In this document: positions 7,834 through 51,038 of the stretch, one piece after another
Numbering within the stretch: the first letter of the stretch is position 1
Layout: every line of letters begins with the position of its first letter
IMG/VR virus record: IMGVR_UViG_3300010318_000007
Coordinates: 1 to 51,573 of that record
Strand: one strand, 5' to 3'
From: a virus
DNA: 51,573 nucleotides
The notes under the pieces: model-generated
Seen by the model: only the letters and a program-made list of their open reading frames with translations
What the model was told of the DNA's origin: nothing
Database searches by the model: none
Position numbers and translations under genes: made by a program

Positions 7834-9325
7834 GTCATATGTTATTGTATTATTACTAGGAGTTGTCTACGGATTCTTTGTAGGACTAATTCCAGTTGCT
7901 GGAGCAACAACAGGACTAATTGCAGTTTATAGTTTTGTTGGTATGTTCTATGATCCTTATATGTTAGTTGTGTTTACAACCGCAGTAGTTGTAACATCTA
8001 GTATAGGAGATAGTTTCTGCGGAGTAGTAATGAATGTTCCAGGTGCTGGAGGTGCCGCGGCTACTATGATTGACGGCTTCCCAATGAGTCGTAGAGGTGA
8101 ATCTGCTAGAGCCTTATCGGCGGCTATTAGTACAAGTTGGGTAAACGGACTTATTTGGGGATTATTAGTATTTTTATTCCTTCCATATTATTCACAAATA
8201 GTTTTATACTTTGGTAGTATAGAAATGTTTGCATTCTTAATATTTGCAATGACGTGTGTAATCTTTATATCAAGCAAGTATTGGGTAAGAGGTATTTTTG
8301 CACTAATAGGTGGTATACTTTTAGGACACGTTGGTATGGATCCTGAAACAGCAGAAACAAGATGGATTAGTGTAATACCAAGTTTTGAAGATGGCTTCCA
8401 ATGGTTAGATTGGGAATATTTAGGTGATGGTGTTCAAATGATTCCTGTTATGGCAGGAGTACTTGCATTTCCTGAATTATTATCTGCATATCGTCTGAAA
8501 GCAGAAAAGATTAGACTTACAAATGGAGTAATTGTAAGTCAACTTTGGCAAGGTGTCAAAGACAGTTGGAAGTACAAATGGGATGGTATGCGTGGAGGAT
8601 TCATTGGAGGTTTTATAGGATTAATACCTGGCATTGGTGGTAATATAGCAGATTGGTTTGCTTATTCACAAACAGTTGCAGTTGCTAATAAAGACAGAGA
8701 CAACGGTGTAGCAATTGGACAAGGACACGTTAGAGGAGTAATTGGTTGCGAAGGAGCCAATAATGCTCAAAAGGCAACTAGTTATGTGCCAACTATTTTG
8801 TTTGGTATTCCAGGTGCACCATTCGAAGTTATTATAATGGGTTTATTAATGTACGTTGGTTTAGAACTTGGTACGCCAAGTGTGTTAATGGACGAACGTT
8901 TCTTTGATGCACTGTTAAGTTCATATTTGTGGAGTTTATTGATTATTCTTCCTATTGCTTATGGGTTTATCAAGTATGCAGTTTACATTACTAATATTCC
9001 ATTTAAATGGTATTTTTGGCCAATCATGGCATCGCTTGTTTGGTCTTGTACACAGTATACAGGTTTGTTAGACGATTATATTATGTTTGGCTTATGTTGT
9101 ATTGCTGGTGTATTTTTAAAGTATTTCAAATTCTCAAGAGTTAGTTTCCTTATAGGATTTATTCTAAGCGAGAGAATTGAAAAGAGTTGGGTACAATTTA
9201 ACACTTATGGTTATGGGTGGGAAGATATGTTACTCTCTCCAGTTCCTGCAACATTTATTGCTTTGGCGGTAATTGCGGCTATATGGGGACTGTTTTTTAA
9301 CAAAGCCAAAATTGACTTTGTTTAA
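7826..9325 (+). CDS. tctA: TctA-family tricarboxylate transporter, large membrane subunit
   Basis: This is a 499-residue polytopic membrane protein with many hydrophobic segments along its length. The family hallmarks are present: an N-terminal GLIPVAGATTGL, NVPGAGGAAATMIDGFPM with RRGESARAL (about 72-95), and a second glycine-rich half with GFIGLIPGIGGNIADW (about 262-277) and a later FGIPGAPFEVI. TctA forms the channel of tripartite tricarboxylate transporters, which import carboxylates with the periplasmic binding protein TctC. The usual small membrane subunit TctB is absent. Length matches cellular TctA (about 500). It is followed 43 bases later by tctC and preceded by a late-type promoter. 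Presumably acquired from a bacterial host. Confidence 0.93.
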   Translation: MFESYVIVLLLGVVYGFFVGLIPVAGATTGLIAVYSFVGMFYDPYMLVVFTTAVVVTSSIGDSFCGVVMNVPGAGGAAATMIDGFPMSRRGESARALSAAISTSWVNGLIWGLLVFLFLPYYSQIVLYFGSIEMFAFLIFAMTCVIFISSKYWVRGIFALIGGILLGHVGMDPETAETRWISVIPSFEDGFQWLDWEYLGDGVQMIPVMAGVLAFPELLSAYRLKAEKIRLTNGVIVSQLWQGVKDSWKYKWDGMRGGFIGGFIGLIPGIGGNIADWFAYSQTVAVANKDRDNGVAIGQGHVRGVIGCEGANNAQKATSYVPTILFGIPGAPFEVIIMGLLMYVGLELGTPSVLMDERFFDALLSSYLWSLLIILPIAYGFIKYAVYITNIPFKWYFWPIMASLVWSCTQYTGLLDDYIMFGLCCIAGVFLKYFKFSRVSFLIGFILSERIEKSWVQFNTYGYGWEDMLLSPVPATFIALAVIAAIWGLFFNKAKIDFV

Positions 9326-9368
9326 TTTCATCAAAAACTAAATGATAAAACGAATAGGAGAAGATAAG

Positions 9369-10421
9369 ATGAAAAAACTAATATTAGGTGTTGTAGCATC
9401 ATTGTTTTTTGTCACACAGGCATTAGCAGACTACACATTTATTGTTCCGCAGAAACCTGGATCGGGTACATCTGTGTGGACTTCAATTGTAGCCAAGGAA
9501 CTCGAAAAGCATTTGGGTGAGCGTATTAAAATTATGCACATTCCAGGCGCTAACGATATTCCTGGTTTTAACAAGTTTCATAACGAACTTCAAAAAGATG
9601 ATAAAGTTGTAATGGTATCACACGGTGGTAACGGTGTGTCATATCTAGTTGACGACGTTGACTATAACTATTATGAATATGATCCAATTGGAATGATGAA
9701 CTTAACGATCATTAACGGTCACCGTAATGAAATCAATCCATATGATGATAAAATCATTTTTTCAGCAGGTTCAGGAATGAATCCGGATATGATGGCACAT
9801 ATTTTACTTAAAGGTGGACCAGGCTTAACAATGGATAAAGCCAAAGAAATCTTTAAAAACGATTATGTGTTTGTTAAAGGATTATCAGGTGGTGAGCGTA
9901 GATTAGGTTACCAAAGAGGTGAACTTAACGTAACACGTGAATCAACTGCGGCTTACAACAAGTACTACACAGGTAAAGATTATTCAACAATGTGGTTTTC
10001 ACAAGGTGTTTATAATTTAAAAACAGGTGAAGTAGACAAAGATCCAAATTGGCCTAATAAATCAATCCATGAAGTGTTTGAAGCAAAGTGGGGCGAAAAA
10101 CCATCAGGTGAATTTTGGGACGCATTTGTTTTAGTCCGTAACTTCCGTGACGTTATGCAAAAAGCATTATGGACAAAAGCAAACAATCCAAATACTCCAA
10201 AGTTAGTTGCGGCTTTCAAAGCAATGGCGGCTGACCCAGAGTCAATGGAAAAAATCTATGAGAAGACTGGTAAGTATGACTGGATTATTGGTGACGATAT
10301 GAAAGCGGCACTTACACAATTACGTGGACAAATTACTAGAGATACATATGCTAACCTAGTAGACTTTTTACAGTTTACTGGTAAGCCTGCAATCTTCAAA
10401 GAAGATGTTATTGCAAAGTAA
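9369..10421 (+). CDS. tctC: TctC-family periplasmic solute-binding protein
   Basis: This is a 350-residue secreted protein. I chose the ATG at 9369 over 9342 because GGAG lies 9 bases upstream and a clean signal peptide follows (KK, a hydrophobic stretch, cut after ALA before DYTF). The mature start DYTFIVPQKPGSGTSVWTSIVAKEL matches the ligand-loop region of TctC/Bug proteins, where the usual motif is VPFxxGGxxD. The SHGGNGVS and YDPIGMMN segments also fit. It would capture a carboxylate in the periplasm and deliver it to TctA. A late-type box and a terminator-like hairpin follow it. The substrate cannot be read from sequence. Confidence 0.88.
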   Translation: MKKLILGVVASLFFVTQALADYTFIVPQKPGSGTSVWTSIVAKELEKHLGERIKIMHIPGANDIPGFNKFHNELQKDDKVVMVSHGGNGVSYLVDDVDYNYYEYDPIGMMNLTIINGHRNEINPYDDKIIFSAGSGMNPDMMAHILLKGGPGLTMDKAKEIFKNDYVFVKGLSGGERRLGYQRGELNVTRESTAAYNKYYTGKDYSTMWFSQGVYNLKTGEVDKDPNWPNKSIHEVFEAKWGEKPSGEFWDAFVLVRNFRDVMQKALWTKANNPNTPKLVAAFKAMAADPESMEKIYEKTGKYDWIIGDDMKAALTQLRGQITRDTYANLVDFLQFTGKPAIFKEDVIAK

Positions 10422-31074: not shown

Positions 31075-32455
31075 ATATACAATAGATATACAGAAACTAT
31101 TTTTAGAGATGATGCTTAATGATGCAGAGTCTTATGTTCGTGTACAAAATATTTTTAATGCAGAAAATTTTGACAAGAGTTTAAGAGAAGCGGCAAGGTT
31201 TGTTGCTAGTCATACTAGTGAGTATAGCACTATGCCTACTATCGAACAAGTTAATGCGGCTACAAATACTAAATTAAAACCAGTACACGAAGTTAACGAG
31301 GGTCATTATGATTGGTTTTATGACGAATTTGAAAAGTTTACTAGACGTCAAGAACTAGAACGTGCAATTCTAAAAAGTGCAGACTTGTTAGAAAAAGGTA
31401 CATATGAACCTGTAGAAAAATTAATTAAAGACGCAGTACAAATAAGTCTTACAAAAGACTTAGGTATTGAATATTGGGAAGATCCTAGAGCAAGATTAAT
31501 GGCATTAAAAGATGGCAACGGACAAATTAGTACAGGTTGGCCTGCACTTGATAGAAAATTGTTTGGCGGATTTAACAGAGGCGAACTAAACATTTTTGCA
31601 GGTGGTAGTGGTTCTGGTAAAAGTTTGTTTATGCAAAACTTATCTGTAAACTGGGCAATGGCAGGACTAAATGGAGTATACTTAACACTAGAACTTAGTG
31701 AAGGGTTATGTGCTATGAGACTTGATAGTATGGTTACAGATATCCCTAGTAAAGAAATATTTAAAGACTTAGATACCGTTGAAATGAAAATTGGTATGAC
31801 AAGTAAAAAAGCAGGTAGTTTGAGAATTAAGTATCTGCCAGCACAAAGTAATATTAATGATATTAGAGCATACTTAAAAGAACTACAAGTTAAAATAGGT
31901 AAAAAATTAGATTATATTTGTGTTGATTATTTAGATTTGTTAATGCCGGTTAGTGCAAAAGTAAGTCCAAATGATCAGTTTATTAAAGACAAGTATGTTT
32001 CTGAAGAATTGCGTAATTTAGCAAAAGAATTTAATATATTATTAGTAACTGCTTCGCAGTTAAACAGAGCGGCAGTTGAAGAAATTGAATTTGATCATAG
32101 CCATATTGCAGGTGGTATTAGTAAAATTAATACTGCTGATAACGTTATTGGTATTTTTACTAGTAGAGCGATGCGTGAACGTGGAAGATATCAAATACAA
32201 TTTATGAAAACTAGAAGTAGTGCAGGTGTAGGTCAAAAAGTAGATTTAGAATTTGATCAAAATAGTTTGCGTATTAGAGAACTAGTAGGAGGGGAATCAG
32301 AACAGCCTTCTACAGTAAGTGATAGAAGTAACGAAGTTATGAATAAAATTAAAACAACTAGTAGTTTTACATCAGACGAACAACCGCAAAAGATTGTTCG
32401 TGCTGACGTACAAAGTTCTAAACTTCAAGATATGTTAAAAACACTAAAAAATTAA
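31064..32455 (+). CDS. 41: Replicative DNA helicase (gp41-like, DnaB family)
   Basis: This is a 463-residue DnaB-type helicase. It appears to start at TTG (31064), with GAGGAA upstream and 11 bases of overlap with primase; the first in-frame ATG is at 31109. Walker A is FAGGSGSGKSLF (about 178-189), followed by LTLELSEG (Glu in motif 1a), Walker B ICVDYLDLLMP (about 285-295), a Gln sensor in VTASQLNRA, and an arginine-finger region TRSSAGVGQ. It forms hexameric rings translocating 5' to 3' on the lagging strand. The C-terminal tail is disordered. It converges on the reverse-strand lipase. Confidence 0.95.
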   Translation: MQTEYTIDIQKLFLEMMLNDAESYVRVQNIFNAENFDKSLREAARFVASHTSEYSTMPTIEQVNAATNTKLKPVHEVNEGHYDWFYDEFEKFTRRQELERAILKSADLLEKGTYEPVEKLIKDAVQISLTKDLGIEYWEDPRARLMALKDGNGQISTGWPALDRKLFGGFNRGELNIFAGGSGSGKSLFMQNLSVNWAMAGLNGVYLTLELSEGLCAMRLDSMVTDIPSKEIFKDLDTVEMKIGMTSKKAGSLRIKYLPAQSNINDIRAYLKELQVKIGKKLDYICVDYLDLLMPVSAKVSPNDQFIKDKYVSEELRNLAKEFNILLVTASQLNRAAVEEIEFDHSHIAGGISKINTADNVIGIFTSRAMRERGRYQIQFMKTRSSAGVGQKVDLEFDQNSLRIRELVGGESEQPSTVSDRSNEVMNKIKTTSSFTSDEQPQKIVRADVQSSKLQDMLKTLKN

Positions 32456-33234
32456 TTTTTAGGTTTAAATTGGTCAATAACTAAATTGCCTTTTTCGTCT
32501 TTAGGTATACCAACTTTTCTAATTTTTTTGGCATATGCATCAATACTATGATCGTATACGCCATCAAAGAATTGTAGTTTAGACCAGGCTTTTAATCTAC
32601 CTCGCATTCTATCTTTAAAACGTTGCCATGGACTTAGTCCGTTACGAACGTTGCCGTAGAAATTAAGATAATTTAATTCGCCGTGGTGTTTAAAACCTAA
32701 CAAAGCCGGCGGTACTCTAGTTACTGCATCATTGTTGTTAACCCAACGATGATGTTTTATTTTTATGCTATTGACAAATGCTTTGTTACCAACTCTTGGA
32801 GATCCAAAAGTGTATAATGAAATATTGCTAAATTCGTCCTGTAATCTAGCGGCACAAATAGTAGCCATCGCGGCTCCTAAACTATGACCGGTTACAGTAC
32901 ATTCTTTACTTTTATGTTTATAGATAAAATCTTCAATACTTTTCCAAAGTTTTTCAATTTCGTCGTAGAATCCGTCGTGTACTCTTCCTGCTACTTTACT
33001 TTTACTTTTCCAAGTTTTTGCATCAGCAATAAGGTCACTTGGTTCGCCTGGTTCTGTACCTCTAAATACAAGCGTTACAAGGGTATCGTTTGCCAAAAGA
33101 TAGGCTTGTGCCCCATCAATATCAAGGAATTCGATGGTGTTATACCCTAATTGTTTAAGAGTTGCTTGTATAGATGGGTCTACGTCCTTATATGCCAATG
33201 CAGAAAGCATAGCATGATGAGAGTCGTAATTCAT
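32452..33234 (-). CDS. Class 3 lipase-like alpha/beta hydrolase
   Basis: This is a 260-residue protein on the reverse strand, with no signal peptide. The fungal-type class 3 lipase plan is clear: an oxyanion strand VFRGTEPGE, the nucleophile elbow TGHSLGAAMA (S118), YTFGSPRVGN, then D169 in NNDAVTRVPP and H183/H184 in FKHHGELNYL. A phage lipase could attack host membrane lipids during lysis or remodel the envelope, but no export signal is seen. It lies between the helicase and capsid-block genes as a single reversed gene, probably a later acquisition. Confidence 0.85.
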   Translation of the reverse strand: MNYDSHHAMLSALAYKDVDPSIQATLKQLGYNTIEFLDIDGAQAYLLANDTLVTLVFRGTEPGEPSDLIADAKTWKSKSKVAGRVHDGFYDEIEKLWKSIEDFIYKHKSKECTVTGHSLGAAMATICAARLQDEFSNISLYTFGSPRVGNKAFVNSIKIKHHRWVNNNDAVTRVPPALLGFKHHGELNYLNFYGNVRNGLSPWQRFKDRMRGRLKAWSKLQFFDGVYDHSIDAYAKKIRKVGIPKDEKGNLVIDQFKPKN

Positions 33235-39206: not shown

Positions 39207-40115
39207 ATGAGAATATCACAAATTATCGAACAACCAATGCAAGGAAAAGTAACAAAGGTTGCCGGCGATAGTGTTGAGATAAGTGATCCAAAGAAACCAG
39301 GTATTACTACAAAAGTAGACCTGAAGAAAATGGATATTGATACAAAAGATCCAAATAACCCTACGTTAAAACCTAAAAAGCCAGGCCCGCAAGGACAAGG
39401 TTCTAAACTTAGACCGGGACAAACAATTTCTGTTGCAACAGAAACAGAAAAAAAAAGACTAGATAGTCTTCGTGAAGGTGTAAACGATCCAGCAATTTTT
39501 AAAGCAATATTCCTAGCAGGAGGCCCTGGTAGCGGAAAAAGTTTTATGGTGCAAGCCATAGGACTAAAAGGATTAGGTTTTAGGTTAATTAATAACGATA
39601 AAGCATTTGAATATTATTTAGAAAAAGCAGGTTTAACAAAATCACCTGAAGATATAATGAGTGAGCCTGGACAAGAAATTAGAGATAAAGCCAAAAGAGT
39701 AACTAAGTCGTTAATGAAAGTTCATTTAGAGCAGAAGTTAGGTTTAGTAATCGATGGCACAGGAAAAGACTTTGACAAAATAACAAACCAAGCAAACTCA
39801 CTTAGATCAGTGGGTTACGATTGTGCTATGATTTTTGTAAACACAAATTTACAAACTGCATTAAAGAGAAATAGTACAAGAGAGAGAACATTACCAGATG
39901 AAATGGTCGAAAAGATGTGGAGCGATGTACAAGATAACATAGGTAGATTCCATAATTTTTTCGGAAAAAATATGTATGTAGTAGACAACTCAGTTGGAGC
40001 AAATACAAGCGGTGTAATAACAAATATGTATAAACGAATGTTAGAATTTGCTAATGCAGATCATCAACACCCTATTGCTAAAAAATGGATAGAGGCACAA
40101 AAAAAGGTGCAATAA
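39207..40115 (+). CDS. Zeta-toxin-like P-loop kinase with capsid-targeting-like N-terminus
   Basis: This is a 302-residue protein. Residues 1-95 are a low-complexity Pro/Lys/Gly-rich region beginning MRISQIIEQPMQG. From about 103 is a kinase domain: FLAGGPGSGKSFM (Walker A), RLINNDKAFE, LVIDGTGKDFDK and RSVGYDCAMIFVNT, with RNSTRERTLPDEMV carrying LID-like arginines. This resembles zeta-toxin/adenylate-kinase-like proteins of marine T4-like phages. The IIE near the start could be a prohead-protease site, implying capsid packaging. Substrate and role are unknown; it may be delivered into the host with DNA. Confidence 0.72.
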   Translation: MRISQIIEQPMQGKVTKVAGDSVEISDPKKPGITTKVDLKKMDIDTKDPNNPTLKPKKPGPQGQGSKLRPGQTISVATETEKKRLDSLREGVNDPAIFKAIFLAGGPGSGKSFMVQAIGLKGLGFRLINNDKAFEYYLEKAGLTKSPEDIMSEPGQEIRDKAKRVTKSLMKVHLEQKLGLVIDGTGKDFDKITNQANSLRSVGYDCAMIFVNTNLQTALKRNSTRERTLPDEMVEKMWSDVQDNIGRFHNFFGKNMYVVDNSVGANTSGVITNMYKRMLEFANADHQHPIAKKWIEAQKKVQ

Positions 40116-49409: not shown

Positions 49410-49859
49410 CTAATTCCAAATTTCTGGGTATATACTTTTTGTTGCTTCTACAAGTTCTTCTGATGTAAAAGTTTTTGATGAAGGGTTGTTGATAGGTATT
49501 TCAGTTAAACCAAATTCTCTATCTAAATATTTGTAATCTATTTTTGTAGGATTAAATTGTTGTAACCAATTAAACACAGTTTGTGGTTCAAATGCTCCGC
49601 AAGTATAAACATCTAATTGTATATTTGCAGGAACTGATTCGTCCCAAGTGTGCATAACAACGTGACTAGTTTCTATAATAGTAGCCACAGTAAGTCCTCT
49701 ATTGCCTTCCATTTCACAATATTTGGCAAAAGGTCCCATAAGTATTTTCATACCTATATCGTTAATTAAAGATTTTACGTTTTCGCAAGTGTCGTTTTCG
49801 ACTTTAGGCGGATTTAGAACTTCTGCTCTAATGATGATATGTTTATGTACCAGTGTCAT
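49410..49859 (-). CDS. speD: S-adenosylmethionine decarboxylase proenzyme
   Basis: This is a 149-residue SpeD of the small bacterial/archaeal type. The self-cleavage and catalytic region is IIETSHVVMHTWDES (S65 is the expected pyruvoyl precursor; H70 nearby), with the catalytic Cys in VYTCGAF (C87). It makes decarboxylated SAM for spermidine synthesis; polyamines neutralise packaged DNA and support replication. speD occurs in marine cyanophages and relatives. It is the last gene of a four-gene reverse operon ending at the shared terminator. Confidence 0.92.
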   Translation of the reverse strand: MTLVHKHIIIRAEVLNPPKVENDTCENVKSLINDIGMKILMGPFAKYCEMEGNRGLTVATIIETSHVVMHTWDESVPANIQLDVYTCGAFEPQTVFNWLQQFNPTKIDYKYLDREFGLTEIPINNPSSKTFTSEELVEATKSIYPEIWN

Positions 49860-50422: not shown

Positions 50423-50473
50423 AACGTCCCTTTGGTTAGTTACCTTTTTTTAAAAAGTACTTATCATTTTTTT

Positions 50474-50502
50474 ATAATATATGTACATTACAGACTTGAC
50501 AA
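50474..50502 (-). promoter_or_regulatory. Reverse-strand promoter of the speD operon
   Basis: Read on the reverse strand, TTGTCA (plus 50497-50502) and TATTAT (plus 50474-50479) are 17 bases apart. Its -35 overlaps the -35 of the forward tmRNA promoter within a CTTGAC-AAA-GTCAAG palindrome (50495-50509). Confidence 0.55.
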
Positions 50503-50524
50503 AGTCAAGTTCTTTTGTTATAAA
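50496..50524 (+). promoter_or_regulatory. Sigma70-like promoter of tmRNA
   Basis: TTGACA (50496-50501) and TATAAA (50519-50524) are 17 bases apart, a near-consensus promoter. The expected start is near 50531, just before the acceptor piece. Confidence 0.8.
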
Positions 50525-50532
50525 TATTATTA

Positions 50533-50880
50533 GAACGTTGAAGCAATTCGAACGTTAGTCTGGACCCGGGGGCGGTACCCGGCGCCTCCACCATAAGCAC
50601 ATACGCATACGCTGGATATGAAGATATCGTATTGAGACATAAGAAACATCAGGTGTGTGTTTATGATGGGGGCGAACTAGGATCGACAGGTAATTAATAG
50701 GATCTGTGGAGTTCTCGGTAGGCGATGACCGTAAATCAAGCAAACTTATAAATGCAAACGATAATTTTGCATCTGAGGATTTTGCCTTAGCGGCGTAATC
50801 ACTCGGGGGTGGCAACTTCCCTAGCAACAGAAAAGTTGCACATCTAAAAGTATCTTTGCAGATATTTCAATTATCCTGCA
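50533..50880 (+). ncRNA. ssrA: Circularly permuted two-piece tmRNA
   Basis: The acceptor piece comes first and ends CGCCTCC-A-CCA (50583-50593). Its T-arm is CCGGG / CCCGG (about 50566-50582) with a non-canonical GGCGGTA loop. A 74-base intervening segment (50594-50667) follows, then the coding piece starts GGGGGCG (50668-50674), which pairs over 7 bp with CGCCTCC. The resume codon is probably GCA (50754); the tag reads ANDNFASEDFALAA and stops at TAA (50796-50798). The ALAA end is the usual protease signal. CAG/TAA at 50687-50693 can pair with TTA/CTG at 50555-50562 as P2. This permuted order is the alphaproteobacterial type. The product frees stalled ribosomes and tags nascent proteins. The 5' and 3' ends given are approximate. 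Confidence 0.93.
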
Positions 50881-51008
50881 ATAAATAATACACCGGCGGG
50901 ATTCTTATATTATACTGTACACGTTTACGGTGTAGCGTGACGAACATAGTACTATGGATAAAGAAGCAAGACACTAGAAACAACTAATAACAAAAAAATT
51001 ATAAACAG

Positions 51009-51038
51009 ACCCTAGTAGAAATACTAGGGTTTTGTTTT
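51009..51038 (+). terminator. Intrinsic terminator after the tmRNA region
   Basis: ACCCTAGT pairs with ACTAGGGT across a 6-base loop and is followed by TTTGTTTT. It ends the tmRNA transcript. Its stem-loop is nearly identical to that at 49379-49398. Confidence 0.85.

Follow-up and report, generated by a model that had tools for sequence, protein, structure and literature searches.

The 51,573-base stretch analysed here (the window), a linear IMG/VR record, is, judging from its terminase, a fragment of a jumbo-type myophage, and it was found to contain a complete permuted (two-piece) tmRNA gene at 50532–50842 (ARAGORN and Rfam). A permuted tmRNA has been described in the phage Melnitz, in a study where the phage database searched yielded 53 two-piece structures (PMC9004378), and the tmRNA database holds 79 phage sequences of all forms (PMC11915505). 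Given the Melnitz report and the at least 120 IMG/VR stretches matched by a single acceptor pattern, phage-borne permuted tmRNA is already known and the RNA of the window is a further member. Two features are less expected: a degradation tag that has so far turned up in viruses alone, and a promoter apparently built for both early and late expression.

ARAGORN called a permuted tmRNA with the tag ANDNFASEDFALAA. RF04321 (tmRNA_permuted) gave 134.9 bits (E 2.3e-26, span 50532–50798; cut-off 47), and RF01849 (alpha_tmRNA), the covariance model named for checking in the first-pass annotation, gave 133.5 bits (E 2.6e-36, span 50446–50842), far above its cut-off of 50. ARAGORN, Rfam and sequence read-back all confirmed the permuted order, with the CCA-bearing piece 5' of the tag-bearing piece. 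They thus agree with the initial claim of an alpha-type permuted tmRNA with its own promoter and terminator on a phage contig, and exact read-back reproduced the acceptor strands, the 74-nt segment, the tag frame and the stop as first annotated. The predicted fold was far more stable than those of shuffled sequences (z -4.0, with 0 of 100 shuffles as good). The two acceptor strands form a 7-bp stem followed by CCA, in which G50670 stands opposite U50587 (exact read-back), that is, a G3·U70 pair, the mark of alanine tRNAs; the P2 pairing is AGAAC/GTTCT. At the sequence level the gene is complete: promoter and terminator enclose both RNA pieces, with the alanine pair, the tag and the pseudoknot (Table 1).

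Table 1. Parts of the permuted tmRNA gene, in coordinates of the window
Feature	Position	Strand	Content	Basis
Promoter	50496–50526	+	-35 TTGACA 50496–50501, 17-nt spacer, TATAAATA 50519–50526	
Sigma-70-like -10 TATAAA	50519–50524	+	overlaps exact T4-type late element TATAAATA	
Acceptor piece (3' part of mature tmRNA)	50532–50593	+	P2 strand, T-arm, CGCCTCC 50583–50589, discriminator A, CCA 50591–50593	RF04321 and RF01849 alignments, read-back
Intervening segment, 74 nt	50594–50667	+	would be removed by tRNA-type processing	
Coding piece	50668–50842	+	GGGGGCG 50668–50674, D-like region, P2 strand 50711–50715, PK1 region, tag, 3' pseudoknot	Rfam alignments, read-back
Tag frame ANDNFASEDFALAA and TAA stop	50754–50798	+		ARAGORN, read-back
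H-type pseudoknot 3' of tag	50806–50839	+	loop AGCAACAGAA	sequence read-back, covariation
3' trailer of precursor	50843–51006	+		Rfam match absent, structure weak
Intrinsic terminator	51007–51037	+	CCCTAGTA-GAAA-TACTAGGG and T-run; stem with 4-nt loop	

The pseudoknot located 3' of the stop codon consists of S1 (GGGG 50806–50809 with CCCT 50819–50822) and S2 (GCAACTT 50812–50818 with AAGTTGC 50833–50839). In 64 distinct relatives, S2 was retained despite many sequence changes, with a mean of 6.56 bp as compared with 4.72 when the 3' partners were shuffled (maximum 5.19 in 200 shuffles). Since S2 covaries across relatives, the coding piece passes the test of pseudoknot folding proposed in the first-pass annotation, the support coming from the post-tag pseudoknot. 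Further downstream, a structured RNA in the 3' trailer was rejected (z only -1.43), and no Rfam family was found there. A glutamine riboswitch like that reported in the 3' region of the Melnitz gene (PMC9004378) was likewise rejected, as no Rfam match to it appeared downstream of the window's tmRNA even at E ≤ 1.

The T4-family terminase encoded in the window is 50–56% identical to those of PA5oct, Phosso and Atu_ph07, and the window also encodes virion/structural proteins, a single-stranded DNA-binding protein and the ribonucleotide reductase NrdA/NrdB. Among these three named jumbo relatives, a permuted tmRNA was found in Phosso and none in Atu_ph07 or PA5oct. The gene of Phosso, a jumbo Sinorhizobium phage (PV764938; terminase 50.5% identical to the window's), lies at 349596–350198 and scored 113.3 bits, its RNA spanning 603 nt as against 267 nt for the window under the same model. 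Only 3 of 46 IMG/VR records with related terminases, most of them fragments, contain a permuted tmRNA scoring over the cut-off. Four IMG/VR jumbo relatives (G053, G039, G049 and G064), with terminases 54–66% identical to the window's, carry the same ANDNFASEDFALAA tag and likewise the TTGAC-TATAAATA promoter; in G053 and G039 the tmRNA lies about 14 kb after the terminase gene, compared with about 47 kb in the window. Three other genes of the window are worth noting: 1) an S-adenosylmethionine decarboxylase of polyamine synthesis (49410–49859, minus strand; PF02675, 52.9 bits), about 0.6 kb upstream of the tmRNA promoter; 2) a Zeta-toxin/AAA-type kinase-like protein (39207–40115, plus strand; PF06414, 43.6 bits); and 3) a Class 3 lipase (32452–33234, minus strand; PF01764, 98.9 bits), which runs counter to most of the genes around it.

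Gene order and acceptor stem are common to the window's RNA and the alphaproteobacterial permuted tmRNAs (RF01849, RF04321), as are a T-arm with an alpha-type loop and a pseudoknot with a GCAACAGAA loop. The differences are the virus-only tag and the phage promoter element TATAAATA, which was found in none of six plasmid-borne alphaproteobacterial copies; these six make up the host side of the comparison, both bacterial genome scans having given zero loci. The Melnitz ssrA (L226; RF04321 113.4 bits) is also a phage-borne alpha-type permuted tmRNA and is preceded, as in the window, by TTGACA...TATAAATA, but its tag is ANDNYVPVDYALAA, and Melnitz is a T4-like phage of 141 kb, not a jumbo relative. 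Melnitz infects OM43, a Methylophilales bacterium, yet has an alpha-type tmRNA (PMC9004378), and therefore the form of the tmRNA does not fix the host. The type of tmRNA reflects the host no more than it does the lineage of the phage and transfer, and is an unsafe host marker, so that of the original proposal the alpha-type identity stands, while the idea that it points to the host group is weakened.

In the promoter a sigma-70 -35 box is combined with TATAAATA, the T4 late element in its known consensus form, and the exact arrangement TTGAC-N18-TATAAATA occurs once in the window. T4-type late elements stand some 10 nt ahead of the point where transcription starts; here TATAAATA lies 6 nt from the position at which the Rfam model of the acceptor piece begins, which stands in for the transcript start. 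A scan for consensus promoters missed this one, as its -10 pattern must end in T. Among the matches listed, exact TATAAATA was found upstream of 87 of 134 tmRNA loci, as compared with 24 of 2500 random stretches, and in 65 of 99 viral tmRNA upstream clusters; as the loci are related to one another and come from pattern scans, these counts are not independent and the frequencies are not population estimates. In 45 of the 65 clusters the element is fused with TTGAC at the same spacing, in 9 it lies in tandem behind a separate TATAAT promoter, and in 11 it stands alone.

These observations can be read in two ways. We consider it somewhat probable that TTGACA and TATAAATA form a fused promoter, served early by host sigma-70 and late by a gp55-type sigma factor, and this is the weakest step of our interpretation. 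The competing view, which concerns timing only and to which we give a little less than an even chance, is that of an ordinary strong sigma-70 promoter active early only, with TATAAATA as a variant -10. Since TATAAATA contains TATAAA, a fair sigma-70 -10, late use is unproven; TTGACA and its 17-nt spacer suit sigma-70 ideally, and the Melnitz authors, whose search motif for late promoters was TATAAAT, call their tmRNA promoter early and for that reason proposed early-only use of the RNA (PMC9004378). Against the early-only view, the ratio of TATAAATA to TATAAT behind TTGAC at matched spacing is 50:2 at tmRNA genes but 3:37 elsewhere in the same loci (Fisher p 9e-20, a nominal value as the sequences are related), and the nine tandem clusters have TATAAATA apart, behind a complete TATAAT promoter.

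Genome-wide counts bear on both views. The 7-mers with the strongest strand bias before ORFs in the window, G053, G039 and G064 include ATAAATA (34 sense/9 antisense) and TAAATAC (28/5), and also GGTTGAC (25/6). The exact TATAAATA 8-mer is not enriched before G064 genes (present in 4 of 127 upstream regions, close to the average of the shuffles), which favours the early-only view, whereas the shorter TAAATA core is enriched there. A gene for a gp55-type late sigma factor is present in G064 (phrog_12791, E 8.5e-85; phrog_234, E 5.2e-25); no late sigma gene was found by phmmer with T4 gp55 in the window, which is a genome fragment. The first-pass annotation had deduced high expression from a near-consensus promoter: the promoter is there, but its -10 is TATAAATA rather than TATAAT, pointing to dual timing and not simply to strength. 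The conserved TTGAC-TATAAATA promoter predicts late expression as well, unlike the early-only proposal for Melnitz. A general late-promoter role for TATAAATA across the window was rejected, with 5 copies present and 9.7 expected. The 244-kb G064 (L269–L281) also contains many AGGTTGAC early-type promoters, in addition to the TAAATA-core element before genes.

The tag begins with ANDNFA, an alphaproteobacterial-like start, and ends with LAA, a ClpX-type (x)AA signal, followed by the TAA stop; in this it is like the Caulobacter tag, in the parts that SspB-alpha and ClpX recognise. With such a start and end, ordinary proteolysis of tagged fragments by host ClpXP is to be expected. A fully degenerate pattern for ANDNFASEDFALAA found the exact tag in 24 IMG/VR viral contigs and in 0 of 84,980 GTDB prokaryote species genomes, a collection scanned without a positive control of its own; a looser tag pattern likewise gave 0 matches in the prokaryote species genomes, again without such a control, and the ANDNFASEDFALAA string did not occur in the literature searched. 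Besides the window's own lineage, carriers of ANDNFASEDFALAA belong to two terminase lineages (66% and 54% identity). In a tree of tmRNA bodies minus the tag, based on 204 columns and modestly supported, they are scattered: some next to Melnitz, some next to the window and some within the jumbo group. Where a carrier has both pieces, its tag DNA is 87–96% identical to the window's and its coding-piece body 48–81%. From the alignments, this pattern suggests either that phage tmRNAs have exchanged the tag region or that the tag is under a nucleotide-level constraint.

Taken from its sequence, the gene very probably encodes a functional alpha-type two-piece tmRNA of the phage with a role in ribosome rescue and tagging. 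A precursor of about 505 nt would be cut by host tRNA-processing enzymes and the RNA charged with alanine by host AlaRS, and host SmpB would bring it to stalled ribosomes whose mRNA is broken or cleaved. ANDNFASEDFALAA would be added to the stalled products and the tagged fragments would go to host ClpXP, ribosomes being freed while host mRNA is destroyed; the benefit would most likely be release from cleaved host and phage mRNAs. Less certainly, the early/late promoter may keep the RNA expressed through infection and not only early. A search for SmpB in 15 phage records (the window, the 244-kb relative G064 and 13 others) found none, and host SmpB would therefore be needed. The suggestion that the phage takes over ribosome rescue thus holds in part: the RNA is supplied by the phage, SmpB is not.

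The absence of SmpB from these records also fits an improbable alternative, in which the RNA is a decoy that competes with host tmRNA for SmpB or AlaRS and damps host trans-translation, like the tag-less, tRNA-like-only RNA of phage DS6A; a tag-less tRNA-like molecule of this kind strongly inhibits tmRNA (PMC4131195, PMC11915505). However, the RNA has kept its tag, stop, pseudoknot and resume region, none of which a decoy requires, and the tag DNA is more conserved than the tmRNA body. That the gene was recently captured from a host and is carried along passively, without function for the phage, is highly improbable: tmRNA genes are common integration targets, and imprecise excision might pick them up, a point discussed by the Melnitz authors (PMC9004378), but the tag is absent from the prokaryote species genomes scanned, the same tag is found in relatives with diverged terminases, a phage-type promoter stands in front, the tmRNA occupies another genome position in relatives, and promoter and tag are conserved over deep phage divergence.

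On the question of why lytic phages carry a tmRNA, the putative early/late promoter gives a testable prediction of timing. The virus-only tag offers a peptide signature by which viral could be told from host trans-translation in proteomes of infected cells or seawater. It is conceivable, although we hold this only tentatively, that a viral trans-translation system is common to marine and other environmental phages, with a fused early/late promoter and a virus-only tag moved as a cassette between tmRNA lineages; rescue would then go on during virion production.

Several other tmRNA loci were unusual. One viral contig (L185) carries two permuted tmRNA genes about 600 bp apart (8159–8493 and 9090–9481), with different tags (ANDNFASEDYALAA and ANENFALAA) and two tRNA genes between them. 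Permuted tmRNAs with tags of their own (VNDNNAGYALAA and ANDNVGMEMRLAA) are present on two large alphaproteobacterial plasmids, Bosea sp. RAC05 pBSY19_1 (L259) and Methylobacterium sp. NMS14P pNMS14P1 (L260), whose gene tables list no feature at those sites. Some viral tags, e.g. ANDNALSNVTFVDFSAPVTAVNEDFALAA, are about twice the usual length (29 aa in L118, L156, L163 and L202; 31 aa in L120 and L126), and the tmRNA regions of L120 and L126 are the closest to that of the window by blastn. Long intervening segments were found in L233, L237 and L238 (149 nt) and in L231, L240, L242 and L245 (199 nt); they are conserved between contigs and by eye appear ORF-like (e.g. MNWDWHWISWFKGTPFQWGE...), which, if true, would mean a small coding sequence within the tmRNA precursor.
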